Shown: piece by piece, positions 1,561-64,000 of the stretch
Position numbering within the stretch: the stretch's first letter is position 1
How the letters are laid out: each line of letters opens with the position of its first letter
DNA from: Deuterostichococcus epilithicus
Taxonomy: Eukaryota > Chlorophyta > Trebouxiophyceae > Prasiolales > Stichococcaceae
NCBI GenBank assembly: GCA_033439295.1
Contig: JAVTLE010000023.1
Coordinates: forward strand, 1-64,000
Direction of reading: 5' to 3'
Length of the DNA: 64,000 nt
Program-made: the position numbers and the translations under genes
Notes under the pieces: model-generated
What the model was told of the DNA's origin: nothing
What the model saw: the letters and a program-made list of their open reading frames with translations, nothing else
Database searches by the model: none

Positions 1561-1966
1561 TGCAGTGGGCGCCGCAAAACAGCAGCGTCTCTCGGGGATT
1601 GCCAGCAGTTGCTCGCTATTGAGATGCGCAATGCTGGATGATTCATCTGCTCCAGCCCTGCTGTCATACCTACTTTGGTGCAACGACAGAGCTTCAACCA
1701 AATGAGGACCACCAACAACAATTCTCAGCGTCGACAGCGCAGTTCAGCAAGGGCAAAACAATGCAAAGCCTTCCCAAGTCAATCCCTTGCTTTGCATCCG
1801 TCTGCCTTCTGCTCTGCATGCATGTGACCCCCCCGCAACTGAAGCTCACCATCTCGCAGTGGGCTCTGAAATGACTTCGTCCTCAGAATCTTCGGCTTGC
1901 ATCGCCTTTCATCAGAGCTGCAAGCTGAACGCTACGCCCTTGCTCAGCAAAACTTATCAAGCCATA
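1561..1966. other. Intergenic, 3' side of the USP gene
   Basis: No gene is supported here. The stretch lies downstream of the stop codon of the minus-strand ubiquitin hydrolase and probably holds its 3' UTR. I see no clear minus-strand TGTAA poly(A) signal in it. Confidence 0.4.
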
Positions 1967-4900
1967 TCATTGGCATCGCGCATACAGTAGCAGGTATGCC
2001 TCACACGCTGCTACCGTTGGCCAGTTCACGCGCTTGACGTGCTGGTCGCTGACTCGAAACCATGCCAGCTGCTCTGGGCGCACGTCCGCTGCAGCGTCGC
2101 CGCTGGCTGCCTCGCCGTCGGCCACACCAGGACTGCCGGTGGAGGCCGTGGCCTCACTAGCAGCAGCGGGCGCGCCGGCAGACTGGGCGCCGGAGGCCGC
2201 CACCTTGAATGGCGCTTTGAGCCCTCTCTGGACAAAGGCTACATAGTGCCCCGACCTGCAGAGGCGGATGAGCATCTCAGATTGGCACCGAACAAGGAAA
2301 CGGCAAGGTCCCAAGCTGCTGGACCATCTGATTTGCTGGCTGCATGTCGGGTGATTCTTGGGAACGGGCGTCACGACTTGACGACAAATGCCTCCTCCAT
2401 GTCTAACAAGCAGGCCAACACATGCAAGCTGCACCGTGATGTTGCCTTGGGTCTCGTTTGCTGAGATCGAGTTTGGTGTTCAAACACGGAAGAGACGATC
2501 TGCAAGGTGATGTTGTATCTCACCGCATGGTGCCGCTATGCTCGACGATGCCGACCAGCTGGTAGCAGGCGTCCATCTGCGGCTGTGGCTGCTGCTGGGC
2601 GGGACAGTCGCCGCTGTTGCTGAGCTGTGCGGCGGCACAACGGCTGCTGTCTGCTGCGGCGCCACCAGGCCTGGCGGTGCCGCCATTTGCCGCCGCGGCG
2701 CCTGCCGCGCCGCCATCGGCATCGGCAGCGGCCAATGCGCCGCCCCCGCCGCCGCCGCCGGGCGCTAGGAAGGGCGCCAGGTCTAGCCGGAAATCAAAGC
2801 GCACACGACGGGTGACCTTCCGGAACATGCCCTGCTTGTCCTGTACACCGGTGCCCACATTCAGTGTCAGGCTCAGAAACACCTGCAGGTGCGCTCCTGG
2901 GCCGTGCAGCTGCGTCTTGGTACGGGAAAGTAATCTGCGCAGCAGCACGACTGTGCGAAATCGCATGTCTGTGCACCACTTCAAGCCTGCTGGTGCTACT
3001 GCACAGCTGAAGGGCGGCGCCAGCCGTGGCCACGCAGTGTTAATGCAGGCGAAGTGCAGGACACAGATGCCCACCTGCTCGAAGCGTTTCAGGTGCAGCG
3101 TCAGCAGCTGCGGCAGGTCCTGTATGGAATAGGTCTTGACCGCCGGTCCGGGCTGCACCGATGTGCTGCTGCTGCTGCGCAGCACGCCCCTCGGCGGCCT
3201 GCCATCGCCGCCGACACTCCTGCCGCCGCCGGGCGCGGCCGCCGCCGCCGCCCAGCCGCCNCGCCTCCCGCCGGCGCATCCACCGCAGCCACCGCGGCCG
3301 CAGCTGCCTCGCCGACAGACTCCTGGTGGCCGCCTGCTGCCGGGCCAGCTGGACCGTTGCCAGCCGCCGCCACCGGCTGCTCGGCGGTTTCAGCTGGCGC
3401 CGCGGGGCCGCCGTCCTGGCGGCTGATGCTGCCGTGGCCGCCCGCGGGAGCCGACGCTGTCGCCTCGCCTGCCGGGCTGCGCAGGTCTGGCTCTGAGGCG
3501 CACAGTCGCTCGTCGACGTGCACAACCGCGCCGGCGCCTGTCACGTTGCCAGACATGCTCGCGAGGCGGCTGGCGTGGCCAACCGCATGCGCCAGCGTGT
3601 CTGGCAGCGCGGCCGCAGCTCCTGCCACATCTCCCCCCTGCGCCTCCTCGCCGCCGCCGCTGTCGCTGCTGAGGGTGAGCGCCAGGCTGCTGCTGGCGCT
3701 GCCGTTGCTACCGGCGTCGCCATCGCCGCCGCCGCCCTCAGGCGCAGGTCCCATCGACGGCGCGGCGCTGCTGGTGGAGGGCCGTGGGTGCGCGGCATCC
3801 GGGTATTCCCACCGCTTCCAGCCGTCTGCATGCGGCAGCAGATATGCTACATCAGATTGGACTCGCAGGCGGCGACAGGGCTGTGCAGACGGTCGACAGA
3901 AGCTGTGCACGTCTTCAAGGGTGTGCTGTAAACCCGACAGTGGGTCAGATGCCATAAGTCACATGCAGCCTGCCTGTGGGCTGGGTTTTGCATTGAGACC
4001 AACCAGAACTGTCTTGGCAAGCTGGACTTCTGCAGGCACTGCCTGGAGACAAGGGACAGCCTTGAGGGTTTCAGACTCTCGAATCAGATCACCTTCGCCG
4101 ATGCCCTCCGGCATGACGCCTGTCACCCGGTAGGCCACCGCCGCCCGCCGCCTGCCGCCGTCCAGCGCCGCGCCTGCCCCCGCTGACGCCGCCGCCGCCG
4201 CCGCCGATGCCACCGGCAGCTGCTCGTCTGGTGACGGCAGCCGCTCCAGCTGCATGCTCTCGACCATCTGGCGCAGGGGACCCAGCCCGTGGTTGTCCAC
4301 GATGTCGGCGACGCAGTCCATCAGGATCTGTGCCGCCTCCTGCACACGCGCCTGCTCCTCCCGGTCGTCAAAGTCCTGCAGGCGGCATCGAGAGCTTTCA
4401 GCACCGCCTTGACGACAGTCAAGCACGCCATGGAACGGAGTCGCGACCACCCCAGCCTGCGCACCCGGTCGGCAGAGTCCTGCAGACACACGAGCATCGT
4501 CGGCGTCAGTGATGCACACGTTGGCGACAGGATGATCAAACGATTCCTAAAAATGAAATTGCGCCGCACGCCACTCGCTACAGGGCTCCCCTGCTCCTCT
4601 CGTGCCTGCTCCGTCCGGTCGTTCAGCTGCTGCAGGGGATGTCAAGGCGGCAGTGAGCCAGCGGGTCGGCGTCGTAAGTCTTCATTTATAGGCGTCTGAA
4701 TCGGGTCCATGTGCAGTCCCCGCCTGCCCCTGCACCTGCTCCACTCCCGACCCTCCCAATCCTGCAGGTGGGGAGAGCATTGGCGGCAGCATTGTGGCCG
4801 TTTGGGGAATTTGAACTTTGTCACACGCCGGTACCTTCACTGGTGCCTGTTCCTGCCGGTCGCCACAGCCCTGCAGACGCAGACGAATGCCATTGTAGTA

Positions 4901-21230: not shown

Positions 21231-21589
21231 TGGAGCGTGCCCGCCAACGCCTCGTCGCTATGAAATGTCGGAAAGTCTGGCGGAATACCTCCTGACCTCC
21301 CGACACCCACTCGAGTCGTGCCCCGAGGCGAGCCCTTGCGTGCGGTCCCTACTGACTCTGCAGAGGTAGAGACCCCAACAAAACTCATTGGCCTGGTTGC
21401 TGTTTGGTTGTGATGCACAGCAACCAGGCCAATGAGTTTCGTTGGGGTCTCTACCTCTGAAGTGTTAGCAGGGACCGCACGCAAGGGCTCGCCTCGGGGC
21501 ACGACTCGAGTGGGTGTCGGGAGGTCAGGAGGTATTCCGCCAGACTTTCCGCCATTTCATGGCGACGAGGCGTTGGCGGGCACGCTCCA
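21231..21589. repeat. Long foldback: 173-bp inverted repeat, 13-bp loop
   Basis: The left arm (21231-21403) and right arm (21417-21589) are reverse complements with only about seven to nine mismatches. The outer ends read TGGAGCGTGCCCGCC and its complement, and the loop is 21404-21416. The arms would form a hairpin of about 170 bp in RNA. It could be a MITE-like element, an inverted duplication of an exon, or a small-RNA precursor. I see no terminal direct repeat that proves transposition. Confidence 0.85.
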
Positions 21590-23034: not shown

Positions 23035-26000
23035 ATGGCGCTGACTGTGAGCTCCATTGAGGCCGACTTCGTGAAGGACACCAAGACCATTGGTGCGTGA
23101 TGCACTGTCCCGCGGCGCGCTGCTCACGAGCTCGCCGCAGCAGTTGCACACTGACCAACCCGCACATGTTTGGTGTTGCTGCTCGGCAGTCGTGCACGTC
23201 AAGCTCGCATGCGCCTGAACTGTACAGTACGCCTCGCGGAGCAACATGCACCGCACATGACCGATCGCTGTCGGCTGCAGCTCTTGTGTTCATATCGTTG
23301 CAGCAGTGCGCCTGCCCAGGCGGCTGAACCTGTGCCAGACACCTGCTTTTGTAGCTACACTTCGCACCTTTCTCATTTCTGACACCTGGTTTCGTTTGAC
23401 ATCCCACAGGTAAGCAATCCGCGTACCTCGACTTCGACTTCGGTGGCCGTGTGCACTCCACCGATGTCCTCAAGTCTGCAGGCACGAATATTCCACGAGC
23501 TTGCCCTGTCAAGCTGCATATGTCACGCAGCGATGCGATGATCCAGCCCTTGGGCATTGAATCACCAGACGGCACATTGCACTGCGCATGCATGCTGCCT
23601 GTCTGCTCCCTTGGAGCGGACACCTCCAGTCGCAACTTACACTCAAACCTTGGCCGCTCGCGGTGCAGGCAAGTTCGCGACCTGGGACACCCCCGTCCAG
23701 CTGACAGGCGCCGGGATCACCATGAAGGTAGCTTCCCTTCAACATGCGAGGATGTGACTCAAAGTTGTTGCCCGTCCGCCCACCCTGCCGTCCGTTGCCT
23801 CCGGCGCTCCTGCTGCTGACCGGGCCTGCACACACCCGACCTGGCAGCATAAGCCGTGGGCATGGAGCTTCGCATGTCAAGGCGTCTGCGCATGTCCTCG
23901 GCGCGTGTGTATCAGCATATGCACCCCCCAACCGTGCAGCGCCGTCCATCCTGCAGGATGCAGCGGCGGCGCCGGTGCGCATTATGTTGCTATCATCGCA
24001 GCAAACGGTTTGATTTGGAAAAAGTCTCCTTTCCTTTACAGGTTGTTGCCAAGGCCTCCAAGACGCTGGCGCATGACAAGGCCCTGGGCGTCGGCGAGCT
24101 CAACCTCCTCAAGGTACTGATACAACCCTTGAAGCTGGATCCGAGGTTGGGTTGGCATTGTAGCTGCCGCTGTCCAGGTTTGCTATGTGTGGCTGGCGGG
24201 CAGCGTCGTGAGTGACGGACTTGGAACCTCCACAGCATGATTCTGGCTTAAAAGCACCGACACGCGCACTGCGCAGGCGGCAGGACAGGGCCCGCAGACG
24301 GTGCAGCTGCGTGACGAGCTGACGGGCTCATACGCTGGCGAGGTGCGGCTGACCATCTCTGGCGGCAGCCCCGCGATCTCCGGCTTGCCCCACACCGAGG
24401 GTGAGTTTTCAAATGCGCCTGTGCATGCTGCGTGATACTGACTGCACCCGTCTTCAGCATGACTCTGCCAACAGTGTGGATCCCTGCCTACCGATTGCCT
24501 GCTACGAACACACACAACACGTGGCGCCAAAGTCTGCACTCACTACGTGACGCTAGCCTGATGGGCCCTCCTGTTGCACTCCCTCCCAAATGCTATCGAC
24601 CGACGGCAGCTGACATGCTGCAGTGGCCATGCTGTGCAGGCCACGGCGTTGCAGGTGCCGCAGCGTCTGTGCTGCCTGGCCACCACGACTCGCAGACCGG
24701 CACCGGCTCTCAGGGCCACAGTGGCGCTGTCGGCGGTGCCGCCGCAAGTGCCGGCGCTGCAGGCCTCGGCGCAGCCGCGCTGCAGCATCACAACCAGGGT
24801 ACGTGGCGTTGTGATGTCATTTCTGCAGCGATGTTGCAGCCGTGCCCAGGCCCTCTGACACGTTTGGTCATCCGCACAGCAAACTACCGTGCATGCACCT
24901 GCTCAGCTTGCTGCTTGGTGCCACCGACTGCCAGCCGGACTGTATCTCCAATAGACGATGTCCTCAGAAACCGTGTCTGGCAAGCTTTCAGCCACAGGGG
25001 TGCACGGCTGACAGACTCCTACATATGTGCTCCGTTTACTCACCTCGATTCTTACTGCCCCTCAGGCGAGCAGGGCCTCACCGGCCAGCAGGGCGGCCTC
25101 GGCGGCCAGCAGGGAGGCCTTGGCGGCCGCCAGCACGAGACCCTGGGCCAGAAGGTCGAGGACCGCCTGCCTGGCCACCACGCCTCGCAGACCGGCACTG
25201 GCTCTCAGGGCCACAGTGGCGCTGTCGGCGGTGCCGCCGCAGGTGCCGGCGCCGCAGGCCTCGGCGCAGCCGCGCTGCAGCATCACAACCAGGGTACGTG
25301 GCCTCTTGACGTGCTTTCTGCAGCGATGTTGGAGTCGTGCCCAGCCCGCTGACACGTTTGGTCATCCGCGCAACAAACAACCGCGCTTGCACCTGCCCAT
25401 GCTCGCGGCTTGGTGCCACCGACTGCCAGCCGGACTATATTTCCAATGGACAACGCGCCTCAGAAGCCCTGTCTGGCAAGCTTTCAGTCACAGGGGTGCA
25501 CGGCTGGCAGACTCCTACATATGTGCTCCATGTACTCACCTCGGTCCCTACTGCCCCTCAGGCGAGCAGGGCCTCGGCGGCCAGCAGGGAGGCATCGGCG
25601 GCCAGCAGGGAGGCATCGGCGGCCGCCAGCACGAGACCCTGGGCCAGAAGATCGACGAGCACCAGACCGGCCACCACTACAACCAGGTGCGTTTATGGCA
25701 ACAAACCCTAATTGTAGTGCATGGCGTTCGTGACTCCGGTTCTCACTGTTGAGTGCGCACGAAAGGTCACTCAGGTGGCCCCCGCATCGAGCATCAGCAA
25801 GACCTCTCGTGCTTGTCGGTTGCCACAGTGCATCTCGCAACTGCGAGTGGCAGTCGGCCGCCGATGTTGATACTGGTGTCTCCGCTCCCCCGACATCACA
25901 CTAGTGCTCACCTTCATCACTCTGCGTCAACCGCACAGAGACTTCCCAACGCGGGAGTGGGGCCGCAGCAGGGGCGCCAGCACGAGTCGCTGGGGCAGCG

Positions 26001-26994
26001 CATCGAGGACCGCCTGCCCGGCCACCACAACAACCAGGTGCGCACCTTCTCTTCCTGCTCATCAGTGGGCCCGCTGTGGCTGTGGTGCTGCCGGTGTGCG
26101 TCCCTTGTTGAGCTTGAGCCCGGCCCATGAGGGGCTGGTGAACCTGCCTGATTTGAACCTAAATCTGAGTGCGTGACTTCGAAACCCGTCGTCTGACAGC
26201 TGTGTGGTACTCTTCAGAACCGATCGGCATGTGTGCTTTGATATATGTGTCACCGTACTGCTGCGCCATCATTGCAGGGCTTCGCCGGTGCGGGCGTGGC
26301 GCCGCAGCAGGGCCGCCAACACGAGACGCTGGGCCAGCGTGTCGAGGACCGCCTGCCGGGGCACAACACCCACCAGGTACGCAGTTGATGGACAAAGAAC
26401 TGCCAGTCTCCTTGGCAGCTCGCAGGCACAACGCCAGGACATGGTGCAGATATTGAGTTCAGTCAGAAAAGGGCTGAACGCATGGAAAGTACTCGTGCCC
26501 TGACGCGCAGACAGCCTGCCGGCTGGCAATGCGCAGATGCCACGTTTTCAGCTCGCGTGCATGGCTGTGTGCACTTCAGAAGATTCCCATCTGATTGCCG
26601 TTTCGCAAGTGTGCAGGGTGTGCCCGGCGGGCAGCAGCAGGGCTTCAGCCAGGCGGGCGGCCCCACTGGCGCACTGCACATGGGTGGCGCCCAGCCGGGC
26701 CCGGGCCAGGGCCAGGGTTTCGGCACCAACACCGGAGTCGGCCAAGGCCTGCAGGGCCAGGGCATCGGCCACAGCCACGACCAGGGCATCGGTGGCAACA
26801 ACGCTGGCGGCGTGCCGTGCCCGCAGTGCCATGGCACCGGCGGCCTCGAGCAGCGCCTGGAGCAGGGCCTGGGCCTCGGCGGCAACCGCCAGGGCGCGAC
26901 GCAGGGCCAGGGCATCGGCCAGAACGTCAACCAGCAGCGTGAGTTGAATTGGCGTTGCCACTTTGCAACTGACTGTCATCCCCTGGTATGCTGA
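23035..26994 (+). CDS. C2-like domain protein with dehydrin-like repeats (copy B)
   Basis: Eleven exons close in phase to 490 aa: 23035-23092, 23410-23481, 23669-23727, 24042-24113, 24277-24400, 24640-24798, 25066-25293, 25562-25686, 25939-26037, 26278-26376, 26617-26994. The N-terminal C2-like domain (AYLDFDFGGRVHSTDV, ATWDTPVQLTG, HDKALGVGELNLL, AGEVRLTISGG) matches copy A. The rest is Gly/Gln/His-rich. It contains four blocks RQHETLGQ(K/R)(V/I)(E/D), three of which run into DRLPGH; this resembles the end of the dehydrin K-segment (KIKEKLPGHH). The last exon has a lone CPQCHGTGG, the DnaJ-type CxxCxGxG motif. Exon 2 appears to use a GC donor (23482). A GTGAGT inside the last exon could instead splice to a further exon before 27237. 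A soluble protective or calcium/membrane-related role is inference. Confidence 0.78.
24570..25561 (+). repeat. Tandem exon-intron duplication, about 496 bp period
   Basis: The exons starting 25066 and 25562 and the introns before them repeat with a spacing of about 496 bp. The introns share long near-identical runs, such as CTGACACGTTTGGTCATCCGC and CTCCTACATATGTGCTCC. Exons 24640-24798 and 25066-25293 also share the GSQGHSGAVGGAA segment. All copies keep phase 1-1, so the duplicated exons stay in frame. Confidence 0.8.
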
Positions 26995-30741: not shown

Positions 30742-33700
30742 ATGCACTATGGGGTGGGCGCGCCGGGTGAGGACGCCTCCCTGAGCGAGGCCGGCCGGCC
30801 ATCACCGCTGGGGACGCTGCCACACCAGCCGCATAGCGGCCGGCAGCTGCGCAGCGCCAGAGGCGGCGGAGCGCCCGCGGCAATGCACGCCCTGACCGAC
30901 CCGTCGGCGCCGAGCTGGCTGCAGCAGCTGGGTGATGAGCGGCGCCAGTGGGACGCGGTCGGGCAGCAGCAAAACGCACATGAGCAGCAGCCATCGCGGC
31001 GGCGGCCGATGTCACAGCAAGGCAGCCCCCAGCGCGTCAATGCGATGCGCACGAATGCTGCGCTGGAGCTCCCTCATGGCACCGGCGCCGGCGCAAACGA
31101 CGCGATGCGGCCCGCTCGTATGCAGCACGAACAGGAGCAACGGGCGGCCCCGGGGCAGGACTCTCTTGGCCATGCACCAGGAGTTCATGCTGACGGCGGC
31201 GGCGGCGGCGGAGGCGGCAGTTCCTGCCGAATGCAGGACGGCGGCCTCCAGGGCCGCGGCGCTGCCAACGGGCCGCTTGCCGCGGGCGGCCCGGCGCTGC
31301 CGGCGCGATCGTGGGTGCAGCTCATGTCGCCGCGCACCGCCTCGCCGCGGCGGCAGCCGCTGTCAGGTGTGCTATTCTTCTTGTCGATTAACTCTCACCC
31401 AGCTGCATCGCATGCGATTGGATGCAGCAGTTTGGTCTGGCATCATCTATCCGTGCAGCATGCATCAGTGTGCACTCTGAAACCGCAGAGCAGGAGCGGC
31501 GCTGGCTGGAGCACTCGGAGCTGCGGGCTCAGACACCATAAACCCCGAATCTTGGCCGTGTTCCTTCCTGCCAGAGGTGGCAACGGAGATGTGGTGCTGT
31601 TCATGTGCAGAGGAGGAGCCGAACTCGTCCGAGCTCTGGGGCCCACGGGCCTGGAGCCCCGCACCTTGTGCATGTTCCGTCTCTCCAGAGGCGGCAGCGG
31701 AGATTTAATGCTGTCATTGGCTGTCGTGTGCAGAGGAGGAGCCGCACTCGCCCGAGCTCTGGGGGCCGCGGGCCTGGAGCCCCACCACCGTCGCGCGCCG
31801 CAGCTACGACACCCACGGGCAGCCCAGCCCGCGACGCCAGGACGGTGCGACCCTGCTGTCGGCCCTGCTCCAGGTTCACAGGTGCCAGGGCCCCAGTGCA
31901 CGCAGATGCGCAGATCCTTGGAACCCCCCAGGATGATGACCTTCCCATCGACCTCAGGAATGAGCATCAGAGCCGTGTAGTCTGTTGACCGGTCCCCATT
32001 CTTTGCTGCAGGGCCAAGCCTCCTGTCCTGCACGTCGAGGCTAGGCCTGTTTCTCGGCTGCGGCCAACATGCAGTCTGTGCCGGGGGTTTTCCGGGGCTG
32101 CTTGATGGCTTCGACTGCACCCTGCAGAGTCGCGGTGGGAGGCGGCGGCGGCGGCGGCAGCGCGCAGCACTTATGGCACCACAAGCCTGCAGCCACCTGC
32201 ATCAGCGCGAGCAGCGACTTCCCCGCCGCGCTACCAGCATCCTGTGGCCGCCCATGCGGCGCCACCACAGCCGCAGCTGCGCGGCGGCGCTGCAGCGAGC
32301 CCCCGCGGCACGAGCAGCGGCAGCAGCCCGACTGCCGGCGGCAGCAGCGGGGACGAAGCCGCCGTGGTCTTCGGAATCAGGCCTCCAAGGTCTCCCTCCA
32401 AGCGGCCCTTGTCCCCGACGCCGCCGCTGGACCTGGCGAAACTCGCAAGCCGCCAGCAGCGGCGCAGCCACCTGACGGCGCCGCCAGCTGTGGCACAGCA
32501 GCAGCCGCCGCAGGCAGCGGCTGCCGTGGCGTCGGGCGCCGCCGCGCAAGCAAGCGGCCGGCAGCGCGGCGCTGGCAGGCTGGGCGGCAGCCCAAGAGCT
32601 GTCGCCGACACATACTCCCGCGACTTCGGGCCAGCTTCGACCGCGCCGGCGGCCGTCGGTGATCCAGATACCAAGCGCCGCTCGGCCGCCGGGGCTGTCA
32701 CACGGGCGATGGGGCGGCAGTTGCTCAGCATGCGTGACGCGGCGGTCGCGGCGGCGTCGCCACGCCTCGACTGGGCACTGGGCAGTCCTACTGGCGGAGT
32801 GCACCAGCCCCCAGTGAGTGCTGGCTGTTAGTTGAAATAGCAGCCCGGAGCGGTCCATGGCCTCTTTCTTCCAACCAAATCACACTTTTTAGTGAGGACG
32901 GCGCCGCCTGTGAGGCATGCCCAGGCAGTGCTCGCATGGACCGAGTCTGGAATTCCTACGGCATGACCTGAGTGCCTCGGGGTTGGCACTATATGCAGCC
33001 GTGCGTGCCCCCATCATGGCACACAACGGCAAACCCTCACTGCGAACCTACAACCTCTTACACTTGAGCTGTGGAGCCACTAGGCCACTAAATTGCATTC
33101 CCAGCAGACCACGGGCTGCACTTCTCACAGCACCTCATTGCAAGTCACTCCTAAGGCAGGCGTCATGGCACGGCGGCGGTGCAGCCAGCGTTGCTCTCCC
33201 GCCGGAGGCTGTGCAAGTGGCGCCGCTGTGGGCGGACCCCTGGCTGTCGGCCATAACTTCCTCATGAGCCTTGCCATCCTTTTCTCGTCTACAAGTGCGC
33301 CGGCATGGCAGCGGGGTAACTGACATCGCCTTCCCGCCTGCCAGGCACTGCTGCTGAGCTCTCACCTCCAAACTTTGGCACCGTGTCCAGGCAATAGGCA
33401 GCACCTTCCCGCCGGATGCAGTGCAGACGGTGCCGCTGGGGCTGTATGGTCCTGAGCCCTCACGTTGTTTTTGTCAACCACAGGTGCCGTGGCACGGCGG
33501 CATGGCACGTGACCGCGCCTTTCCTGTGAGAGGCGTTTCAGGCGGTGCAGCTGTGGGCAAAATCCTGGCTGTGCTCCGTACCTTCTCCTCAGCATTCACC
33601 TTCCCCTCAGCATTTACCTTCAAAACTTTCTGTGCACAGGTGCCGTGGCATGGCGGCGGGTCAACCAGCAACGCTTTTCCGCCAGAGGCGGTGCAGGCGG

Positions 33701-36447
33701 TGCTGTTGTGGGCAGACCCCTGGCTTTCGGCGCGCATCTTTGGCGCGGGGCTGTATGTACTCATCTGCATGCGCCAGGTCGGACTGGGTGAGCGTCTCTT
33801 GCACTAACTCTCCAGGATCCTCAATCCTCCTGCATCTCAAAGCGCCTGGCTCTGCACACCACATGCCAAGCATCCGCAGGCCACAACACTGCTGTGGGGC
33901 AGTCGTGAAATGCGTCTTGTAGAGGCACCGAACAACAAGGTTGCTGAGTGAAAGGGGATGCCAACGGAAGCCCTCAGGGAGGGCACGTCCCATGATGCAA
34001 GCAGGCAAGCTGCCACTGCAGCCGCTGACGGCGGCCGCGGCCAGCTGTGTTCTGTGGATGGGCGTCAGCATCTTGGGCCGTGCCCTGCGCCGCTACGGCC
34101 TCCTGGCGCCTTTCGATGAGGTAAAGTGTCATCAACACCAGGTCTCGTGCGAAAATCAGCTCGGCCCTGACCATGGCCGCAGGCGATCGCAGTCAAAATG
34201 TGCTGCAGCGCGCCTGCTGCGTCATGCCTGCACTTGGAAGTGCTCTACTTGATTTGAAATGCACACGGCAGCGCACACGATGCATCGGACAGTTTCGAAC
34301 GGTTTCACGTGATCTGCCTCTGCCGCTGGCAGACAAGCGGGGCACTGACGGCGCCCTGTTGCCGATGCAGGGGCCGGAGGCCTTGCAACACTCCGAGACA
34401 CTGCGCCGGCAGCGCGCTGAGGAGCGACTGGTGCGGGGTGCAGAGAGCGCCGCGCCGGTCGTCACGGCGTGCGCCGCCATGCTGGGGCGTGCCCTTTCCG
34501 GTGAAATTCATTTTATTCTTTCAAGTTATTTTATCTATCAAACCAGCAACCTTCTGGACGCTCCTCCTGCAGCACTCTCAACGACCGATTCGAGTCCTGG
34601 GGACGGCATTCCCGCCCGGGGTTTGACGCTGGGCGCGCATTGTCGACTGAGGCATGCTCGGACTTCTGACGCGTCCTGTACGGGCTTCGATATATAGGGT
34701 GTTCCCCGACCCGTCCGCGCAGGCAGCCTTGCGCTCGTGCAATGATGATAGATAGTCAACAGGCGACAGGGCTGCACCTGTTGCCGGCAGGAAGCCAGGC
34801 GTTCTACAGGCAAGCAACGGCGCCCTGTGTGCGCCGCACTGGCTGCATGCACCGCACTACAGGGTTGTTTGTGCGATCGTTTTGACAGCAATCGGGCCTG
34901 CTCTGCCGGGATATCTGAAAAACGGTATCTGAGAGCTGCCAAACTGTGCAGGTCGCTTGAGCAGCTTTTTGGAGGGTTGCTGGTTGAGGTGCAGAGGTTC
35001 TAGGTCCTTGTCCTTTGGTTTGCTCTAGGGGCAGACATGCCGGATTCGCAGCGCAAATGCCACGAAACATTGCGGAGCCGGCCTGTGCGTTGCCGCTGCC
35101 GGCCGCAACAAAGCGGCTTCCATTCGGCCGGGCCTTGCGCTGTGATAAATTTTGCTTTGCCATGTAGCCAGCAAGTGAATGTGAACGAATCCTGGCTGAA
35201 TTGTTCGCCCTGCCACCTATGTGACACAGGCCGTGACAAGGTGGCGTCCCTATGGCTGGGCCTGGCGCTCTGGGCCGCCGCCGCGCTGTCGGAGTCGCGC
35301 CTGGTGGCACAGCCAACGCTGCTGGTCGCCGCCTGGGTCGCCCTCTTCGCGCTGCCGCCTGCCTACGCCGTGTGCAGGTAGCTGCTGAGCTGTCCATGCT
35401 GGTTTTGGTTTTTGGGGCTGGCACTTACTGATGTGTGTGGCATTGTGGTTCGTGGCACGCGAATTGAGGTGTAAAGGAGCAGCACCGAGTATCCTTTTTG
35501 GCAAGGGTCCAACTCACGTGATCGAGCAGAGCTGAGCAGCCCTCAGATCATGGGAGCCCGGGCGCTCAGATCCCCGTGCTGCTGCTTGCCGCTGCGCTAA
35601 TGTCGCTGTCACTGCACGTATGTCCTACTCCAGGGCAAATATACACAACAAATTTTGAACCAATGTCCCGTGGTCTGCGCCACGTCTGTCGTGCCATCTC
35701 TGCTGCTGCCGCTCGGTTTCCGACCTGCTGATCAAAGGGTTTACGGCCCTTAGCAGGCTGCACTCCAACATCGGCTCCATGCACGCACATGTGAGCTCCT
35801 CAGGATGTTGTCACCTACCATCACGAAGAAGAAATTGTCATTTATATATGAATCTGTTATATAAATTAATATGCATATGATCTGCAGGCGGGCACTGGAC
35901 GCGCTTGCTGAGGAGCTGCTGGCTGCCGCCGCTTCAGCGCTCAGCACGGGTAATGCTCCTGCCGCACGAGCCTTGCAGTCTGGCAGGCAGGCTTCACCCG
36001 GATGCAGGCAGCTTTCGCCAGTGTGCGCATGCATCTGGAGGCACCTGGCCAGGGGCTGCGTCTGGCGGCATGGCCGCTTGTCGTACCGTAGAGGCGATTG
36101 GTGGAGGAAGTCACAGATGAGCCGCCACCAGTTGCATGTCACTTGCAAGTCAGCACTATCGTCGGCATCGGGTTTGGTTGGGGATCGGTCGCCCCAACTT
36201 ACACCTCCTCCTGCCAAGCTAATTGCTTCATCACTTTGCACAGCAGCTGGGCTACCTTTGGTGCTTCGCCTCGCTGCCGTGCCTAATCACTGAAACCCAA
36301 ATTGCAGGCGGCCGCGCGACGGCGGGGCTCGCACTCGGTGCCGCGGCGGCAGGCTGGGCGTTTGGCGGCCCGGGCGCGGTAGGACAGGCGACCTGCGCGC
36401 TCGGCGCGGCCGCAGCGATCCTCGCCTGGCGGGCTGCAACAGGCTAA
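30742..36447 (+). CDS. Reticulon-like protein with long disordered N-terminus
   Basis: Reticulons insert hairpins into the ER membrane and shape tubules. Nine exons close in phase to 700 aa: 30742-31366, 31734-31873, 32193-32813, 33640-33777, 34022-34120, 34371-34500, 35230-35377, 35888-35949, 36308-36447. Residues 1-462 are low-complexity (Gln, Ala, Ser, Pro, Arg-rich). The reticulon homology domain starts at about 463: FPPEAVQAVLLWADPWLSAR then IFGAGLYVLICMRQ gives the first hydrophobic hairpin with the next exon. SGRDKVASLWLGLALW to FALPPAYAV (about 584-633) is the second hairpin. A short amphipathic exon (RALDALAEELLAAAASAL) and a Gly/Ala-rich hydrophobic tail (654-700) end the protein. 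Decayed copies of two exons lie in its introns. Confidence 0.85.
31563..31790 (+). repeat. Tandem duplication of the start of reticulon exon 2
   Basis: Two direct copies of about 113 bp are visible: about 31563-31677 and about 31678-31790. Each has a CCAGAGG(T/C)GGCA(A/G)CGGAGAT box, the acceptor GTGCAG and the exon start AGGAGGAGCCG. The downstream copy continues as the 140-bp exon used in the model. The upstream copy loses similarity after about 50 bases of exon and leads into no long frame. Confidence 0.75.
33156..33777 (+). repeat. Array of decayed copies of a reticulon-domain exon
   Basis: The functional exon is 33640-33777. Upstream lie four related segments: about 33156-33262 (readable as FPPEAVQ-like LPPEAVQVAPLWADPWLSA), about 33298-33362, about 33385-33450 (STFPPDAVQTVPLGLYGPEP) and about 33480-33590 (VPWHGGMARDRAFP). 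Only the last copy has an intact frame, a GTGCACAG acceptor and a matching donor. The others have lost frame or splice sites and sit inside the intron between 32813 and 33640. Confidence 0.8.
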
Positions 36448-37662
36448 CAACATGATGACCGGCCTGCCGTGCCGCAAACACCTTGCCGGGCGCATGTTGA
36501 GGGCTGACGGAATGCAGGCGGGCCGTGGGCCGGCGCTGCCTCAGTCGCCGCCGCAGACCTTCGCTTGGCGCCCCAAAAACCCCAAGTGGGCTGATGCTAT
36601 GAAGGGCGGCCCACCTGCGCCGCCGCAGCCGCCGCCGCACGCAAGGCAGACGGAAGCTGGCCTGGAAGCAACCAGCCGGAGGGGGACCATACTTTGCACA
36701 CGGATCAGCAAATGTAAGCGTAGAGCAATTTTGACGCAAGCGCCTCGCGGCATGCTGGGCAAAGCTGCTGCCTTTCGCGATAAAGTTTGTTGTAAGTGCA
36801 ATTTTGACCATTGTTTTGACCAGCACGGCTGGGAGACAAACGAAACACAGATGTATACGAGATGCCTGAAGGTGCAGTGTGTTTGCCTTGAGGGCGTTTG
36901 TAACGTAAGGTGCAGTCATGCAGCTGCGGATGCTGTCACGATGGCTGCCTGGCTGCACTATCCTGCGTTTTATGCTGCTGCAATCCCAGCGATGCAACCC
37001 TACACACCACTTGCCATGCAAGCTGAAGTTCATATCGCAGTTTGAATGGTTTTACAACATACATGACATGCAAGCACTTTGTGCCAACCATTTTTGTGAC
37101 TCATTGCCGCCAAACGTAATTGCAATGACAGGAAACACCGTGCAGTCAACCATCATCATCAGCCTGCCTGCATACATACACAGCGATTTGGTCTGGGTGG
37201 AGTCCTACGTTGCCTATGTGTGTGTGCGGCCGGCTGCACCCAGAGCCACGAGAGACATGGCCTCAAGCAACCGGACTGTAAAAGGTTTTGTAGAGTGGCA
37301 CTGTCATAATGTACCAGCGAATCGTCATGTGCTTTGTGCCGCTGCGCTGTCAAGGTCTGTAAGTGTCAGCCAGCGCACTCCCCTCACATACGCCAAATTG
37401 GGGCTGCCGGCTGCAGTCATCAGCCTGCACACCTGCTGACAACCGCCCGGCATCGCTGATAGCAACATGCTACTTCGCCATGTCACTGCCTTGGATGACC
37501 AGCAGGCCTGCGAGCACTGCCGATGGTCAGACCTCCCCTAGCAGGGTGTTGTTGCTGCCGTCTCCCAATGCCTCCTGCGATCCGCCGTCCTCCGACGTGG
37601 CCCCGGCGAGCAGAGCCACCATGACAGGCGGCCCGCCGCCGGGCAGTGTGAAGACCTGTGGC
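36448..37662. other. Convergent intergenic region (reticulon / aquaporin A)
   Basis: No gene is supported. TGTAA occurs near 36789 and 36898 on the plus strand and could end the reticulon transcript. From about 37190 the sequence resembles 43690 onward, so the aquaporin duplication extends past the coding region on this side. Bases 37530-37662 still encode, in a shifted frame, a tail homologous to copy B (see findings). Confidence 0.45.
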
Positions 37663-40600
37663 TCAAGCGACTCGCGAGCTCATGGGACTCCCTGTAGAAG
37701 AGGCGCCTGCAGGATGTAAACGTTTGCGTCAGCTGATCGACCACTCCTCCAAGCATGATGCCGACCAGCTGGCAATTTCCACGTTGGATGCTCAAAAGCT
37801 TGGCATTTGTGATTGCATGTGCGCTTCGAATCGAGAATGGCCTAGCCTCATTCCTGTGCTGCTGCTCCCTGGAGTCTATAGATATCTTGCAGGCAAGCCG
37901 GGTCGCTGGGCAGTTGCGCTGAAGAGCGGCACTTTGAGCCTCAGTCGACTTGATACCGATCGCAACTCAACGAAGAGCAATGGGTCGCGCACTTGGCAAG
38001 TCTCTAGATGCCAAGGCTGTGACGCGGGCCATCTGATATCACATGCCAAAACAAGGGCATCAGAGCACCGAACTGCATCATTGCAGCAGCACCCTCACTG
38101 CTGGTTGCGCCGTTAGAGGGTGCAGCGTCCAGAGTGCCGCCAACCGTGGCAACCTCACGCACCGTCCTTGCCGTCATGGAAATTTCCGCCGGCGGCCGCC
38201 GTGTCAGCAGCAGTAGCCCCGTGGCGCCCTGCCTCAGCGGCATCAAGCTGTTCAGAGTCGTGCCCGTGCGCCCTAGGCCGCCAGGCGCCCTTGTAGCCAG
38301 CGTACCCCGGCAGCTGCACCACTTTGCCGCCGTAGCTTAGGTCATCGTCAAATCCGCCTGGCGCCATGATCTGCGCAGGCAGGCGGAGGGGTTGCAGCGC
38401 CTTGTCCATGATCCAGACGACCTTTAAACACTCTCACACCAAACCATCGTCATCACATCGGCCCCGGGTCCTGCCCCAGCTACATGTAAATATCATCAGG
38501 TCACAGCACCGGGAAGCGGCTTGGTCGGAAGGCGGCTTCATACAGCACCTGCGTATGTAAACAACGAGCCACAATTTCAAGCTGCTGGCGTGAACTAGCT
38601 TTCCGCTTGACGTGTGGGCCTCCATGTTGCGGCGATGCATCAGAGATGCTGCCATGCACAGGGTGTGTGTAGTGCCAGCAGCCGCAAGAGTTGCATAGCA
38701 AGGCCTCACCGCAGCAAAGACGCCTCCGCTCATTGGACCAACCTATTTGCAGTGCGGGGCATGCAAGTCAGTTTGCTATGCTCCTGGCTGCTGCAGATTG
38801 TTTTAGATATCTCGTTACCAGATGAGCACACAAGGTTATATAGGTACAAGGTACGCACGCACCCAGAAGACCCATTGGTCGTCCCATATGCCAGAAATCA
38901 CTGAGGGGCCGAAACTGCGAGCCGCTGCAGTGTGACCAGCAAGACGAGCATCAGCATGGTGTGTGTTTGAACGAGGATGAGGATGCATTGCAGTCATACC
39001 TAACAACATACTGTCAAACGGCAAGAAAAGGGTTCAGGCTGTTACAGCAAATGACACACAGCTAGTATTGAACTTGGGACAGCAGGCCAGACGCTCACGA
39101 TTGATGCTGCAGCCGTCAATGGGGATGGCAACCTGTGCATTGAAGTACATGGGACAAGGCTCTAGCTCAAAGGTCGCATTGCCACACCGAGTAGATTCGC
39201 TACTCATGCAGCAATAAGTTGTTCACTGTGACTCAACAATGTTTAGCTTTGACAGCTCGAAATCTCGAAAGCTTTCGCATGGCTCCTAGCATCAGTCGCC
39301 TTATTTGTGCATTTCACAAGGCGGGCATGTTTCTAGCAGCTGATACAGAATTCGCACTAACAAGGATTGGTGATGGCAGCGCACACCAGGTGGCAGATGA
39401 AGACAGTAAATCCAATGGCGAGCGGCGCCAGGATCTGCGGCAGCGACCAAAAAGGAATCCTCATGTTACGACACACTCTGGCAGCAACGGCATCACACAC
39501 AGCGGCGGCGGCACCAGATGCTGTGGCTGACAGCGTCTCGTCTACAGCATCGGCAACCGCTGTGTAGCTGTCACCGGGAGGTGGGCGCCAATCGCCTCGC
39601 GTTTCCTGTCGGTCGCCGCAAACACCACGAAGACCTGGCAAAAGTCACGGCAAATGGTCAAATGTGGAACTACTTCTGTGCATGTGTTCGGTGAAGCTGG
39701 TCGCACGCCCCTTGGTTGTTTGAAGGCTGCATGCAACTGGCGGTCGAGAAGCTGCCACTAGTGCGTGGTCACCTTGCAGCATGAGCAACCCGCACGGGCT
39801 GGTTGCGGGATCAGCTGCTGCATCAGCTGCCCTGCTTGTGCGCTGGGAGCATGTCGCGCCCGCCCGCTGTAGTGAGGTAACTACCACGGTGGCGGCACGA
39901 GGACAATGCCGACATTGGTTGACATCAGCTGCCATCTGAGGATCTCAGCAGGCATTGCAAGAGTGCACCAGCAAGGCCGTTAGCAGGAACTCCATGAACC
40001 AGGCGCCCGCATCCGAGGTACCCGGGTTGACGCCGTTTGTGCCTCCTTTCGCCGCATACCACCCAGAGCGGTCCCACTGCACAGTGTGCATGGCTTCGTG
40101 TGGCAGGACGGTCGGATAGAATGGACGGGCAAATGAGATCAAAGACGCACTGCCAACACAGCACGTGGCCACGGTATCCAGCTGCCGGCGGAAAGACTCC
40201 TCTAATGCAAAGTTTGTGAACCACGATGCGACTTTGGATGCTGAGGATGATGTAATAGCACAGCATACTGTTTGGGTCAGGCACCACGCAAGGCATCTTC
40301 TCAAACTAAAGCAAATAAAGTCATCAGAAGCGCGTGGCAGGCAAGATGAACGAAGAGGGCAGACTTGCCGCATAGACGAACGCCGAGCCGAGGATGGCGC
40401 CAACGACCTGTGCGCCCCAGTAGCACAGCGCACGCAGCAGGGTGACCTTCTTGGCGACCAGCAGCCCCAGAGTGATGGCCGGGTTCAGGTGCGCCCCCTG
40501 TGACCGCCATTGGTGCAGATTATTTGCAAATCAATCAATACCTCAACTGCCACACAGCCACACCAGCAGCCCCAGTTTTGTAAAGGGCATGTAATTTGGC

Positions 40601-41969
40601 ATTCTCCCTACACTAATACTCGAATAAGAAAAGTTACATGAAACAGCAAATGAAAGTGTCGACAGCCACCAACTCTCGGAAGCACACGGCAATGTCTATG
40701 TCAGCATCGGTAGCAGCATCACTGCCAGTGATGCGGAGGCATGCAGATCCAAGCTTACAGTGCTAATGCACTCCGCTGTAAGCATCAGGAACTCCTGCTG
40801 CCAGGCCATCACCGCTACCCAGTGGTAGGAAGATGCACAATTCAAGTCTGCACTTAAACAGGTCGCAATGATAATTGGAAAGGATGCATCATGGCGGCAC
40901 ACATCCGCCAGCAATCAGCAGGAGTCCGCACCGAGAAGGTGGCCGCCGAGTACACCAGGATGGCGATGGCAAAGCCGAAAGCCATCGCAACGGTGAGCAC
41001 GCGCGGGGAGGTTAGCCGACAGCCGGTCGGATCGCCTGTGGGACACGATCTGAAGGTCATCAGAATGCGTAGCTAGACAGGATCAATTTCACTCAACATG
41101 GGGCACATACATTACCGGGGCATGCACACGATTGCGGCTCTGAATGCGGCACTGCTCGAGGTGCTGCTCGAGTGCAGTGGGCACACCGGAATATGAGCAG
41201 TGGGCTGGTGCTCACTCAGAGGCATGCCGCTGGCGATGGCTCCCTGCTCGTTGTCGGAGGTGCCAATGTCGGCGTTGTGGCAGGAGGAAGTTATGACGCC
41301 AATCGTGATGGCCAGAAAGGCAGTCATGTGCACGAACTCGGCGAACACCGCCTGCAACGCATAGATCGAGCTGGGCAAATCCCAATCGCATCAAACTGAA
41401 GGTGAAGTTGCCATCGCTGTCTGTGCAGGCGAAGCGAACTCGGGCTATGAGGCGCGACGCCAGTGGCGTACCCCCGCATCCTTGTCTCAGCACCTCCGTC
41501 ACGGCAGCAGCACCAAAATGGCGCCCATGCACGCTCGAGAGCAGGCAGGCTGGCGCTCTTGCAATGGAAGCGAGCAATTCGGCAACAGCCATGCGACTGA
41601 ACCCTCAAGAAAGATCTTAAGGCCAAATTTTGTGCGTGAAGAAACCAATGGCCTCAAGGCCTCCTGTAGCTGTACTATCTGCTCAATGCGATTACAAGAT
41701 ATCAGCACAGCTTGGAGCAACAGCGTTGTAGCTTGCAGACTGTCGTCCAGGGGTAGCAGTGACGCCCCCGGCAGAAACACCAATTGAGAGCAAGCAACTG
41801 TCTCACGTAAAGCCTGGAAGCGCCACGAGAACAGGTACTCGTTTACCTTGCAGAATGCCCCATTGACGGGCTCCCACGGCGGGAGGGCCAGGCCCAGCTC
41901 CGGGACGACCAGTGACAGCCTGGATTTCATTTCGCGGCCAAACCTGGGCTCTCGAGGCGTGTCCACCAT
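37663..41969 (-). CDS. Aquaporin, PIP-like MIP family channel (copy A)
   Basis: This is a six-helix water or small-solute channel of the major intrinsic protein family. Thirteen exons close in phase to 366 aa: 41847-41969, 41216-41351, 40932-41035, 40365-40497, 39969-40045, 39575-39634, 39387-39434, 39099-39132, 38863-38924, 38710-38742, 38510-38548, 38163-38370, 37663-37706. Both pore signatures are intact: GAHLNPAITLG (NPA 126-128) and SINPARSFGP (NPA 238-240, with the selectivity-filter Arg241). Other family blocks are AVFAEFVHMTAFL, AWFMEFLLTALLVFVVFAATD, LAPLAIGFTVFICHL and WDDQWVFWVGPM. These match plant plasma-membrane PIPs best. The N-terminal tail is short. The C-terminal tail of about 90 residues is unusually long for a PIP and carries LPGYAGYKGAWRP. 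Its last 14 codons end at a frameshift relative to copy B. Confidence 0.9.
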
Positions 41970-43655
41970 CGCCGTGACGCTCCTCCCTTTTATGGCAGCA
42001 GATTGACCACAAATATCGACTTTCCGGCTACCTGCGGTGCAGTGCTGGAGAATGGATGATCTGGTGGGACTAGGACTTTGTCCACCGGGCGCGCGGGAAG
42101 CTAACAACAATTGCGTACTGCAGCAGCTGCCGCCTACCTGCGTTGGATACTACTATCCGATAATATAAATCGTTTCGATAGCCTTTCCAGATTTAGTGAT
42201 GATCTGCAAAATGACGGCGCAGGCAGGCCGCCGTCCGCCTTGATGCATGATGGCTTGCCATCGCCCATGAACTACACTGCCTTGCTGTGCAATCGCCTGC
42301 TCTCCCTCCTCCTTTCTCGTACGTTTCGTGCGTGTCGTGTAAGTCGTCCGTTTTGAACCAGGTCGTGCGTTTCGTACCGCTTCGTGCGTTTTCGTACCAA
42401 GCCGTGCATTCGTACCAGGGATGCAAACAGTGTCCCCTAGCATGCACTGGTGATGTAGGTGGCTCACTTGAGGCTCACGTCGGGGCAAGTCGTGAGGACA
42501 TTTTCAAGCCAAAGCCTCTCTACGGTGCTCATACGACAGGCTGTAAAGAGTTGGGAAGTGTCAGCGCTAGGTGGCTCGACTGCCCTTGCACCACCATCAT
42601 GACGGGATTGCAGCACATTGCCAGCATAGATGTCGTCGCTTGCTCGAGCACCGTCGCTCAGGAGCCGAAGTCAGCGGCCCAGGAAGGTCACCAGGCGATA
42701 CTGATACGATGAGGAGGGGCCGGGAGCCGCAATAGCAACAGCAGCCAGAGGATTCAGCCCCCAAAGACGTCATGAGCAGCCTGCATTAGGTGGTGCTTGG
42801 CCAGCGGTGTAAGCAGCAGGCCAGGACTGACTGTGCGGCGACTTCAGCGCCTTTAGCATGCGCCTCACCGGCTGGTTGAGTCTGCGGTCAGGGGTGCAGG
42901 ACCGCCGGCTGACCTCCCTTGCTAGCGGGGTGTCCGCTGTCATCGGGTCAGCAGGGTGTTCTACCTCCGGCCAAAGGCTACATCGACTCATACATCGATG
43001 GCGGCCCAGAGCGCCATAGCCAAGCGCCACGCGGTGCAGCTACGCAGCCGTGATATCGCCATTCGTGGCCTGCCCGTGAGGAGCGTAATTGAGAGCACCA
43101 GAGATCCAGTATCGGCTGTCGACGGCCTCGCTGTGCGGGGTTGACGTCACTGCCATGTTGGCGGAGCGCATGGGCAAGGAGGCCTCCGCAGCACCAGCGC
43201 GTGCGCTAGCCGCCGCCTATCAGGATCACGCTGCAGATGCAGTAGCGGTTTGCAGCTTACACAGTCAGAAGGGAGGGTCTCCGCACGAGGCAGGACCTCA
43301 TGCCTGCGCGCACAATGGCACCGCCGACGGGATCTCAGCTGCTTGCGATTGGGCCTGCTGCAAGCCCACCTTGTCATTTATCCATTTTCCAGCACGGCTG
43401 GAGGATCGAGGAGCCAAGCAGACGTTCGATATGTCCGAGTTTTTACAGTGAGTCCAGACCCAAAGACTGCAGGTTCAGCGATGAAATGTTCTAGCTTTAG
43501 ATACCACTTGCGATGGAACGTGATGTACATTTGCACGTTTGAAGCAACGTTACAGCATGAAATGTGTGTGCCAACATCTTCTGCAACTTACTGCCCACCG
43601 TGCATGCAAGAATTGGAAGCACTGCGCACTCGACCATGAACAGCCTTGGAGCCTT
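41970..43655. other. Spacer between tandem aquaporin copies
   Basis: The right boundary of the duplicated block is close to 42015. The spacer contains a CG-rich short repeat (42318-42420) and a plus-strand open frame around 43089-43451 (LAERMGKEASAAPARALAAA) that I cannot assign. The promoter of copy A should lie just above 41969. Confidence 0.4.
42318..42420. repeat. Short imperfect repeat, TCGT(G)CGTTT/CGTACC units
   Basis: Imperfect copies of TCGTGCGTTTCGTACC and shorter TCGTGCG or CGTACC units recur five or six times. It is a simple-sequence-like tract upstream of copy A. Confidence 0.55.
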
Positions 43656-46600
43656 CTAAGACGCGAATCTTAGACGCGACAGTGCCAAATTAAATTTGGT
43701 CTGGTGAAGTTCAGCAAGCGCCGTCTGTGTGTGCTGGCTCCCACGAGAACCACATGCTTGTGCGCCCGCAGTGCAACTGCTGCTGATACAGGACAACACT
43801 GTAGTCATGATGTGCCAGCGGATCGTCATGTTCCTCATGGCGCTGCGCTGCTGATTTTTGCTCGTGTCAGCCAGCGCACTCTCTTCGTTGCGTCTATGTG
43901 TGGCTGTTGCGCTCGTCAATCTGCACACCTGCTGACACCGCCCGGCAGCGCCAACAGCAACATGCCACTTCGTCAAGTCACTGCCTTGGATGACCACCAG
44001 GTCTGCTAGCACTGCCGTAGAGTAGACCCTCCCTGGCGGGGGGTCGTCATTGCCGTCTTGCGCCGCCTCCGGCGACCCGCCGTCCTCGGACATGTCCCCA
44101 GTGAGCGGAACCACCATGACAGGCGGCCCGCCGCCGGGCGGCGTGAAGACTTGGGGCTCAAGCGACTCGGAGCTCATGGGACTGCCCGCACAGGAGGGGC
44201 CTGCAGGGCGCGGAAAGCCATGTCATGTTGCCTAGTACTCCTCCGAGCACAATCCTCAAGAGCTTGGGGCATCTCTGGTTGCATCTGCACAAATCAAGCA
44301 CTGAGACTCAGAGAACATGCAGCCGTGTTGCAGGTAGATGCGCCGAAGTCAGCAGCATCTTGAGCCGACTCGATGCCGAGTGCGAAACCATGCAGTGAGC
44401 TGCGCACGCAACACATGCCGAGGCTTGTCACAACAGGGCAGCTGATATCACATGCCCAGACATAGTCGTCGTTGTACCGTTCACTGCTGGCCGTGCTAGT
44501 CAGGGTGCAGCATCTAGGCACCAGCCGTGCGTAATGCACCTACCTTTCTTGCCGCGGTGGCGCTTTGCGGCAGTGGCCGCTGCCGCAGCAACGGGCCCAT
44601 GGCGCCCCAACTCGGCGGCGTCGAGCTGGTCGGACGCATGCTTGTGCGCAGCAGGGCGCCAAGCGCCCTTGTAGCCAGCATATCCCGGCAGCTGCAGGCC
44701 TCCGCCGCCGCCGCCGTCTTGCTCGTCGCTGCCTCCGCCGGGCGCCATGATCTGCGCAGCCAGGGCAGGTAGTAGTGGCGCAGCGCCGTCGTGGGCAATC
44801 CTGCAACCTCTGATTGTCTCAACTCGAACGCCATCACAAATCAGTCCCAGGTCTTGCCCCGGCTGGAAATTCTCGGATTATCTTGTCATCAAGTGAACGC
44901 ACCGGGAAGCGTGTTGGTCGGAAGGCCACCTCATACAGCACCTGCGTGTGAGAAGGAGGCCAATGACATAAGTTGCTTGCGGGCGTCATTGGGGTCTTTA
45001 CAGGAGGTCAAGGCCCCCACACTGGTGGTACAGAGATGCTGTTACGCACGACGGAGGTGTGTGCCAGCAGCACGCGGTGCAAGGCGGGGCCTCACCGCAG
45101 CAATGACGCCTCCGCTCATTGGTCCGACCTGCTCGCAATAATGCGGGGCACGCGAGTCAGTTTGCCATGCTTCTGCTGCAGCCTTCAGTGTTGCAGGCTG
45201 TAGTTGATATTTCTTCGCCAGATGAACATCACAGAAGGCGCGAGCGCACCCAGAAGACCCACTGGTCGTCTCAGATGCCAGAAACCACCGAGGGACCAAA
45301 GCTGCGGGCCGCTGCGGTGTGACCAGCAAAACGAGCATCGGACTGGGTGTGTGAAACGGTAATGAGGGTGCATCTCCGTTGCAGCCAGACACAAAGGTGG
45401 CCTGATATCGGACGGCGCAAAAAGGGCTCAGGCTGAAGCGAACGACAGACAAAGTTCTGGCAGGCTCGAGACAGCAGGCCAAACCCTCACGGTTGATGCT
45501 GCAGCCGTCAATGGGGATGGCGACCTGTGCAGGGAAGACAAAGCTCTGGTTTGAGGGTCGAGCTGCTGCCCCGAGCAGAGGTTCTCTCTCATTTAAGGTC
45601 CTGCACTGCGACTCGAGCACTGCTTCATCAGCCGCAGCCGCCTCTGCATGGCGATGAGGTGGATGCTCTTCCAGCGGCAGAAGCAGAACCAGTAACGACG
45701 GTCGGTTGTGGCGGTGCGCACCAGGTGGCAGATGAAGACGGTGAACCCAATGGCGAGCGGCGCCAGTATATGCAGCAGCGACAGAAGAGCATCTCCTGTT
45801 ATGCATACTGTCAGACAGCGCACTCCTGTTATGCATACTGTCAGACAGTGCAACATCGGCGGCATCACATGCCGTGGTTGCATGGTCCGCCGAGCCTCTG
45901 CAACCTCGGCTGCCACTGCCAGGTTTTAGGTTTTAAATGATTGCCTACCGGGAGGTGGACGCCGATCGCCTTGCGGTTACTGTCTGTTGCCGCAAACACC
46001 ACGAAGACCTGGTGGACACAAGTCAGGGCGAACACAATTCAGGGCGAAGAGTCAAAGTTGGCTGTATTTATCGAAGGAGCGGAAGAAGCGTCCAGACGCC
46101 TTGGTTTTGACACTGCGAGTGCTGTCAGCCAAGGAGCTGGCAGCACGCCCTGATGGTTTCATGAAGCTTGCATGAGACTGTCGATCCGGAAGCCGACATA
46201 CACGCAGTGCATATGATTGACTGCTGATGAACATTTACAGCATGAGCGACCCGCACGCGCTGGTCGCGGCAGCTGCCCTGCTTGCACGCTAGGAGCAGGC
46301 ATAACGTCGTGCCTGCTGGTGAATTTTCAGGACGACTGTCAGTGGCGGCACACTGGCAATGCTGACAGTCAGACATTACGTAGCTGTGCCGCTTGCATTA
46401 GGATCACAGCAGGCAAGGGCGCACCAGCAAGGCAGTCAGCAGGAGCTCCATGAACCAGGCGCCCGCATCCGAGGTGCCCGGGTTGACGGCATTCGTGCCG
46501 CCTTTTGCCCATGCCACCCAGAGCGGTTCCACTGCACAGTTTCACATTATGGCCTCATAGGTGAGACGGGCGCGCATGGAATGGACGGGCAGCTGCAAGC

Positions 46601-57737: not shown

Positions 57738-64000
<6,263 letters not shown>

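Follow-up and report, generated by a model that had tools for sequence, protein, structure and literature searches.

A predicted intron of a reticulon gene in the green alga Deuterostichococcus epilithicus carries, directly before the exon in which the reticulon domain starts, four broken copies of the beginning of that exon. The array is probably a graveyard of ordinary tandem duplications across the 3' splice site, which would be silent and would be decaying as intron filler. The gene lies in the window, by which we mean the whole stretch of 64,000 nucleotides analyzed here (positions 1 to 64,000); it is the start of the 4.6-Mb contig C19 in a genome of 46.8 Mb and 21 contigs. The window begins with an AAACCCT telomere-type repeat, and a 117-bp direct repeat (81% identity, offset 176 bp) lies near the telomere at 1211-1503.

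The gene at ~32.1-36.4 kb carries a reticulon domain, as an earlier note on this DNA had proposed: a Pfam search with the joined exons matched PF02453 with 34.9 bits (cut-off 31.8), and the alignment spans residues 53-224 of the product, the exons having been joined by eye. On the forward strand, a coding stretch at 32106..32813, open in frame and with a putative 5' start, ends in donor context at CCCCCA/GTGAGT in phase 0. The predicted host intron (32814..33639, 826 bp) runs from the donor GTGAGT at 32814 to the acceptor GTGCACAG at 33639, and the phases of the exons on both sides of it agree. The functional exon, which is copy 5 of the array, has 148 nt (33640..33787) and is followed by the donor GTGAGC at 33788; its end, placed at 33777 before, is thereby corrected to 33787. 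The remaining exons, recognized by open frames and the Pfam match and with their edges set by eye, lie on the same strand at 34005-34120 and, approximately, at 34371-34501, 35231-35381, 35889-35950 and 36310-36447 (within 34005..36447). The array occupies the final 483 bp of the intron, and the intron donor stands 343 bp before it, outside every detected copy. When we looked for relics beside the other reticulon exons, 8 of 10 tests stayed below the shuffles; the candidates were a borderline one upstream of another exon (35103-35144, score 20 against a shuffle maximum of 19.5) and a second that follows the last exon (36484-36570, score 17 against 14.5). The exon region of a paralogue on contig C7 showed no detectable local repeats, a further reticulon match was found on contig C10 of the same genome, and a search of viral_contigs for relatives gave no match.

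Scanning exon 33640-33787 over the intron upstream of it gave four matches with scores of 53, 46.5, 24.5 and 24, while none of 200 shuffled introns scanned with the same exon reached 20 (best, 19). The reverse complement scored 11 and five other introns of the gene at most 12. In pairwise comparison with the exon copy, copies 1-4 scored 53, 25, 24.5 and 46.5, the best of 500 shuffles being 17.5-18. The five-segment array is thus confirmed, since its four upstream members stand far above the shuffles, and the graded decay described in the earlier note is likewise supported, the scores against the exon ranging from 53 for copy 1 to 24 for copy 2. Compared directly, copies 1 and 2 scored 13.5 where shuffles reached up to 15, so that the similarity between these two is not significant. 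The copies and the exon are all in direct orientation, as in a tandem duplication across the splice site, and a search of the 46.8-Mb genome, which scored best candidates only, found the array DNA nowhere but at its own place.

Each upstream copy is broken, again as had been noticed before, and all four are on the forward strand. Copy 1 (33157..33251) keeps its AG and is 78% identical to the exon, with which it aligns over 95 bp without an indel, with its score of 53 set against a shuffle maximum of 17.5-19; its frame is open for 35 codons (ASWHGGGAASVALPPEAVQVAPLWADPWLSAITSS) and then meets an in-frame TGA at 33265, and the donor is absent. This copy was also recovered at the protein level, with 71% identity and an E value of 1.2e-8, by a translated search of the alga's own genome. 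Copy 2 (33291..33360; score 24-25, shuffle maximum 18-19) has a degraded AG (ACAAG) and deletions, and copy 3 (33376..33442; score 24.5) has lost the AG and has an internal deletion, with an 11-nt exact match to the exon, GGGGCTGTATG, further on. Copy 4 (33479..33570; score 46.5) keeps a CACAG acceptor and contains a +1 frameshift caused by one extra base; its acceptor is in frame with that of the exon, 156 nt away without a single stop. The fifth segment (33637-33731) lies at the start of the functional exon, and the intron tail between copy 4 and this exon contains a nested 18-bp tandem duplication (33580..33615).

What is repeated is not the exon itself, which the earlier note had taken as the unit, but its acceptor edge, made up of an intron tail, the AG and ~65-92 nt of the exon start. 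The flanks immediately upstream of copies 3, 4 and 5 are alike (p 0.000, 0.015 and 0.020), while those upstream of copies 1 and 2 have no significant likeness to the others; the intron tail therefore seems to belong to the unit at least in the later copies (3-5). Only copy 5 continues into the exon body and the GTGAGC donor. Near their ends, copies 1-4 have GT sites such as GTCGGC, GTCTAC, GTGTCC, GTATGG, GTGCTC and GTACCT, and by eye none of them resembles the donors used in the gene, the GTGCTC of copy 4 being the nearest. Because copies 1-4 have neither the exon body nor a donor, and their frames or acceptors are broken as well, they cannot serve as they stand as the mutually exclusive exons that had been suggested.

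The same kind of relic was found elsewhere in the genome. The earlier idea of a local process that repeatedly duplicates single exons with their flanks holds as regards recurrence, with 20 groups of exon and relic in 263.9 kb, but not as regards the unit, each group copying one exon edge together with the neighboring intron at the splice site. Similar cases expected in a P450 gene (50440-55968 of the window) are present, with relics at four exon edges of three exons on the forward strand. Three of these edges are acceptors: a relic without AG (52065-52103) precedes the exon at 52187-52225, another (54036-54118) precedes that at 54161-54244, and a third, which has lost its AG and whose frame is still open (54758-54830; EAMRPAPIAGESTLRMSGRALQLG), precedes the exon start at 54931-55003. 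This last exon has relics at both ends: its end, at 55029-55104 and with the donor, is followed by two downstream relics (55111-55186 and 55243-55299) as a donor-edge group with an 82-bp unit, and the p450 match in Pfam falls on the exon between relics 54758-54830 and 55111-55186. Also on the forward strand, a relic at 31544-31660 and an exon copy at 31657-31783 (31544..31783) form an acceptor-edge group with a contiguous 113-bp unit. On the reverse strand, acceptor-edge groups consist of the exon edge 4332-4384 with upstream relics 4590-4636 and 4827-4879 (4332..4879), the exon 58239-58286 with its upstream relic 58354-58401, and the exon 60669-60701 with its upstream relic 61043-61075; a donor-edge group consists of the exon 61382-61428, which has its donor, and the downstream relic 61257-61303. 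As to the putative DCAF8-like gene, which the earlier note had also named, relics are indeed present at 58.2-61.4 kb.

These groups come from a self-comparison of 21 loci, whose 263.9 kb comprise the window, the 9.9 kb that follow it, the starts of 12 contigs and 7 interior samples. Seven loci with satellites or gene-scale arrays (L004, L005, L009, L011, L015, L020 and L030) were excluded from this total, and the low-GC contigs L021 and L022 lay outside the comparison. With overlapping repeat pairs such as hairpins counted apart, the 21 loci contained 43 separated pairs in direct orientation against 5 inverted ones and 1 in the reversed-sequence control, the respective numbers for the window alone being 24, 0 and 1; in the seven excluded loci they were 35, 9 and 24. 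Among the 43 direct rows, 27 pair an exon with a relic or two relics with each other (19 groups), 10 pair coding with coding sequence and 6 are neither; the contiguous group 31544/31657 was added outside these rows as the twentieth. By locus, the 20 groups are divided into 10 in the window, 4 in L028, 2 each in L002 and L018, and 1 each in L023 and L029. The seven interior samples contained 6 groups in 70 kb, in three of the seven loci and with four of the six in L028, which corresponds to 0.86 groups per 10 kb (95% range 0.31-1.87).

Repeats of other kinds were seen as well. The excluded locus L030 (positions 1-10000, C3:900001-910000) is one tandem array with 72% GC and offsets that seem to be multiples of 15 bp, and is possibly a giant repetitive coding sequence, while L021 and L022, the first 10 kb of contigs C20 and C21 (97,409 and 211,271 bp), have 29-30% GC, and these contigs are probably organelle genomes. 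The window contains a long imperfect palindrome at 21232-21589 (93% over ~360 bp) and a glycine/glutamine-rich gene at 24673-26383, which we take to be LEA-like, with a 495-bp direct repeat and with whole-exon tandem duplications at 25621-25691, 25972-26042 and 26311-26381, after each of which stands a donor-like GTGCG or GTACG. Two adjoining gene copies at 38158-47481, apparently a tandem gene duplication, share an AHLNPAITLG stretch, on the basis of which we presume them to be aquaporin-like.

Thirteen of the 20 groups are of the acceptor type, with the relic upstream of the exon, and seven are of the donor type, with the relic downstream. In all 20, as judged by eye, the splice site that was copied stands between the relic and the exon body, for which the chance is 1e-6 if the side were random; because exon and relic, strand and splice site were called by eye with the aid of coding scores, not blind and with this rule in mind, the result is a strong pattern and not a blind test. 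The flanks of the functional copy point in the same direction, the outward one being more coding-like than the inward one in 19/19 scored groups, by a model trained on only 9 ORFs and for which the best-scoring strand was not always that of the gene. Support from Pfam families for the functional copies across groups is thin: when nine peptides (functional copies and one relic) were searched, one p450 match was above the cut-off (8.5e-9), ubiquitin (4.8e-4) and weak AAA/SMC/RAD50-type matches (1.2e-3 to 0.049) were below it, and six of the nine, one of them the relic, had no match.

If pieces of exons were copied alone, the similarity should end at the splice site. Over the 27 relics taken together, however, intron positions 7-16 from the junction match in 102 of 269 comparisons (38%) against 28% in mismatched pairs (p=0.0002), and the consensus positions 3-6 match in 69% against 47% in mismatched pairs of the same type. 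The 40-bp flanks on the intron side were also alike in the 23 pairs tested (p=0.0029, or 0.0185 within type), the two contiguous ones among 25 having been excluded, while the flanks on the exon side showed no continuing similarity past the aligned part in the same 23 pairs (p=0.29-0.31). Copying of the exon without its intron flank is therefore disfavored by the pooled similarity on the intron side. For individual pairs, however, the extension exceeds the 95% null, given for 100 bp, in only about 3 of 25 (58239/58354, L002 2084/2336 and L023). The alignment fills at least 90% of the spacing in only 2 of 25 pairs, the contiguous complete units 31544/31657 (113 bp) and 55029/55111 (82 bp), and is partial in the other 23. 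A strict tandem structure is thus shown only for these two groups, and deletions and decay must be assumed for the partial coverage in the rest.

We consider that the end of the intron, pyrimidine tract and AG included, would have been duplicated together with the opening part of the reticulon exon, head to tail and repeatedly, by tandem duplication during replication or repair. Each upstream copy would have, or have had, an acceptor but neither the exon body nor a donor. If the spliceosome uses the last acceptor, the upstream copies would be removed with the intron and the protein would stay unchanged, so that such duplications would be close to neutral and would be worn down by substitutions and deletions. 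In the mirror case seen in other genes, the end of an exon and its donor would have been duplicated and the first donor used, with the relic downstream removed. The side rule would then follow, because only one side allows a partial copy to connect with the exon body. The apparent preference for exons requires no targeting of exons, since a pair in which one member is under constraint remains recognizable for longer, and most duplications confined to an exon would disrupt the gene, whereas those at splice edges would persist because they are silent. The break of the duplication would be sharp on the exon side; on the intron side the similarity would fade because both members are free to change.

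Some features of the copies suggest that their splice sites may be, or may once have been, in use, namely apparent constraint on copy 1, retained splice cores and the in-frame acceptor of copy 4. Under this reading, which we regard as unlikely, the copies are alternative acceptors in use: copy 1 would be a regulated terminal or "poison" exon, and copy 4 would add 52 in-frame residues. Copy 1, with its 95 bp free of indels, differs from the exon by 12 synonymous and 10 nonsynonymous changes over 31 codons (dN/dS 0.20) and looks partly constrained. In simulations of a neutral copy 1 and a constrained exon, as few amino-acid changes arose in 4.7-7.4% of runs (P 0.05-0.07), or in 2.7-4.0% (P 0.03-0.04) when freedom from stops was required as well; under a harsher null in which all changes were placed on copy 1, the figure was 0.4%. 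The AG of copies 1 and 4 is kept, and AG/GT cores are kept in 23/27 relics once the register has been reset by eye for a gap in 31544, L028:2012 and L028:3726 (20/27 otherwise), which gives P 0.001-0.09 depending on the retention assumed. The offsets from copy to exon at the acceptor end (480, 345, 270 and 156) are all multiples of 3, a coincidence with a chance of 1/81 that was noticed post hoc, and the offset of copy 4 shifts to 155 further in. A rule of in-frame retention was rejected, since the offsets modulo 3 over 27 relics, the four of the array included, are distributed as 9, 5 and 13 and are thus not in frame across the other groups. Copy 4 is frameshifted relative to the domain, although the 156 nt from its acceptor to the exon are free of stops, and neither copy 2 (degraded) nor copy 3 (lost) has an intact AG. 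Moreover, all the signals of constraint are biased, because detection favors well-kept copies. A bolder form of the idea, in which a considerable share of the introns would consist of splice-edge duplicates, thousands of them, whose retained AG and GT sites would still serve as decoy or reserve splice sites and copy 1 would be a constrained alternative end exon tuning expression, strikes us as improbable.

Readings in which the array has another origin appear still less plausible. Intron gain, that is, repeated birth of introns by tandem genomic duplication with the relics as intronized parts of a former exon, is very unlikely: a unit of the same content is described as the source of a new intron in the RdRp gene of potato (PMC4974935), and the reticulon exon and some others start with GT after the AG, but the donor of the host intron, at 32814, is its own and is followed by 343 bp without detected copies, and no copy provides a recognizable donor. 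We would give just as little credence to duplications of the whole exon, in which a former array of mutually exclusive exons later decayed and lost its 3' halves. By eye, TGAGC stands after copies 1-3 where the GTGAGC donor could have been, the GGGGCTGTATG retained by copy 3 is from the 3' part of the exon, and intact whole-exon duplications do occur at 25.6-26.4 kb; nevertheless, the tails of copies 1-4 match the 3' part of the exon and its donor no better than shuffles do (p 0.37-0.54), and the whole exon was rejected as the unit. That a dispersed element or introner supplies the repeats can hardly be entertained: several copies do lie inside one intron, but in the best-candidate search of the 46.8-Mb genome the array DNA matches its own locus only, and in the other groups each relic copies its own neighboring exon.

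The nearest published case that we found is that of the potato RdRp gene, where, reportedly, duplication of an intron tail, a 3' splice site and an exon start made a new intron by means of a cryptic 5' splice site (PMC4974935). The content of the unit is the same there, namely the polypyrimidine tract, the 3' splice site and the exon start; in potato, however, activation of the cryptic 5' splice site gave rise to a new intron, whereas the reticulon intron holds four decaying copies and no recognizable donor. A review covers the gain of introns through tandem genomic duplication (PMC3443670), a route that has been proposed for cases in Drosophila (PMC2891723). These gains, as outlined there, share with our array small tandem duplications that meet splice signals, but in them a segment from within an exon is duplicated and supplies both splice sites, while here the duplication takes in a splice site that was already present and does no more than lengthen the old intron. 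Intronic copies of exons have been catalogued in animals, where 0.06-0.08% of exonic nucleotides in worm and fly and ~2% in human are given as having a copy at an identity of at least 80%, by methods too different from ours for a direct comparison (PMC9013439). Like the present relics, those tandem exon duplications look like exons and lie close to their parent, and many of them are intronic and lack annotation; they were sought as exons supported by expression, in contrast to the relics described here, which are exon edges with a single splice site and follow the side rule in their placement. Among the matches listed in our literature search, which covered titles and the openings of abstracts and few subscription journals, none showed decayed copies of splice edges, with a side rule, recorded across a genome.

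For gene annotation the relics call for caution, because copy 1 and the P450 relic at 54758-54830 resemble exons and a protein search finds copy 1. If the density holds, the genome would carry a readable record of small duplications silenced by splicing. The rate of small tandem duplication in genes would then be measurable, and it would become testable how introns lengthen and how spare splice sites precede alternative splicing.
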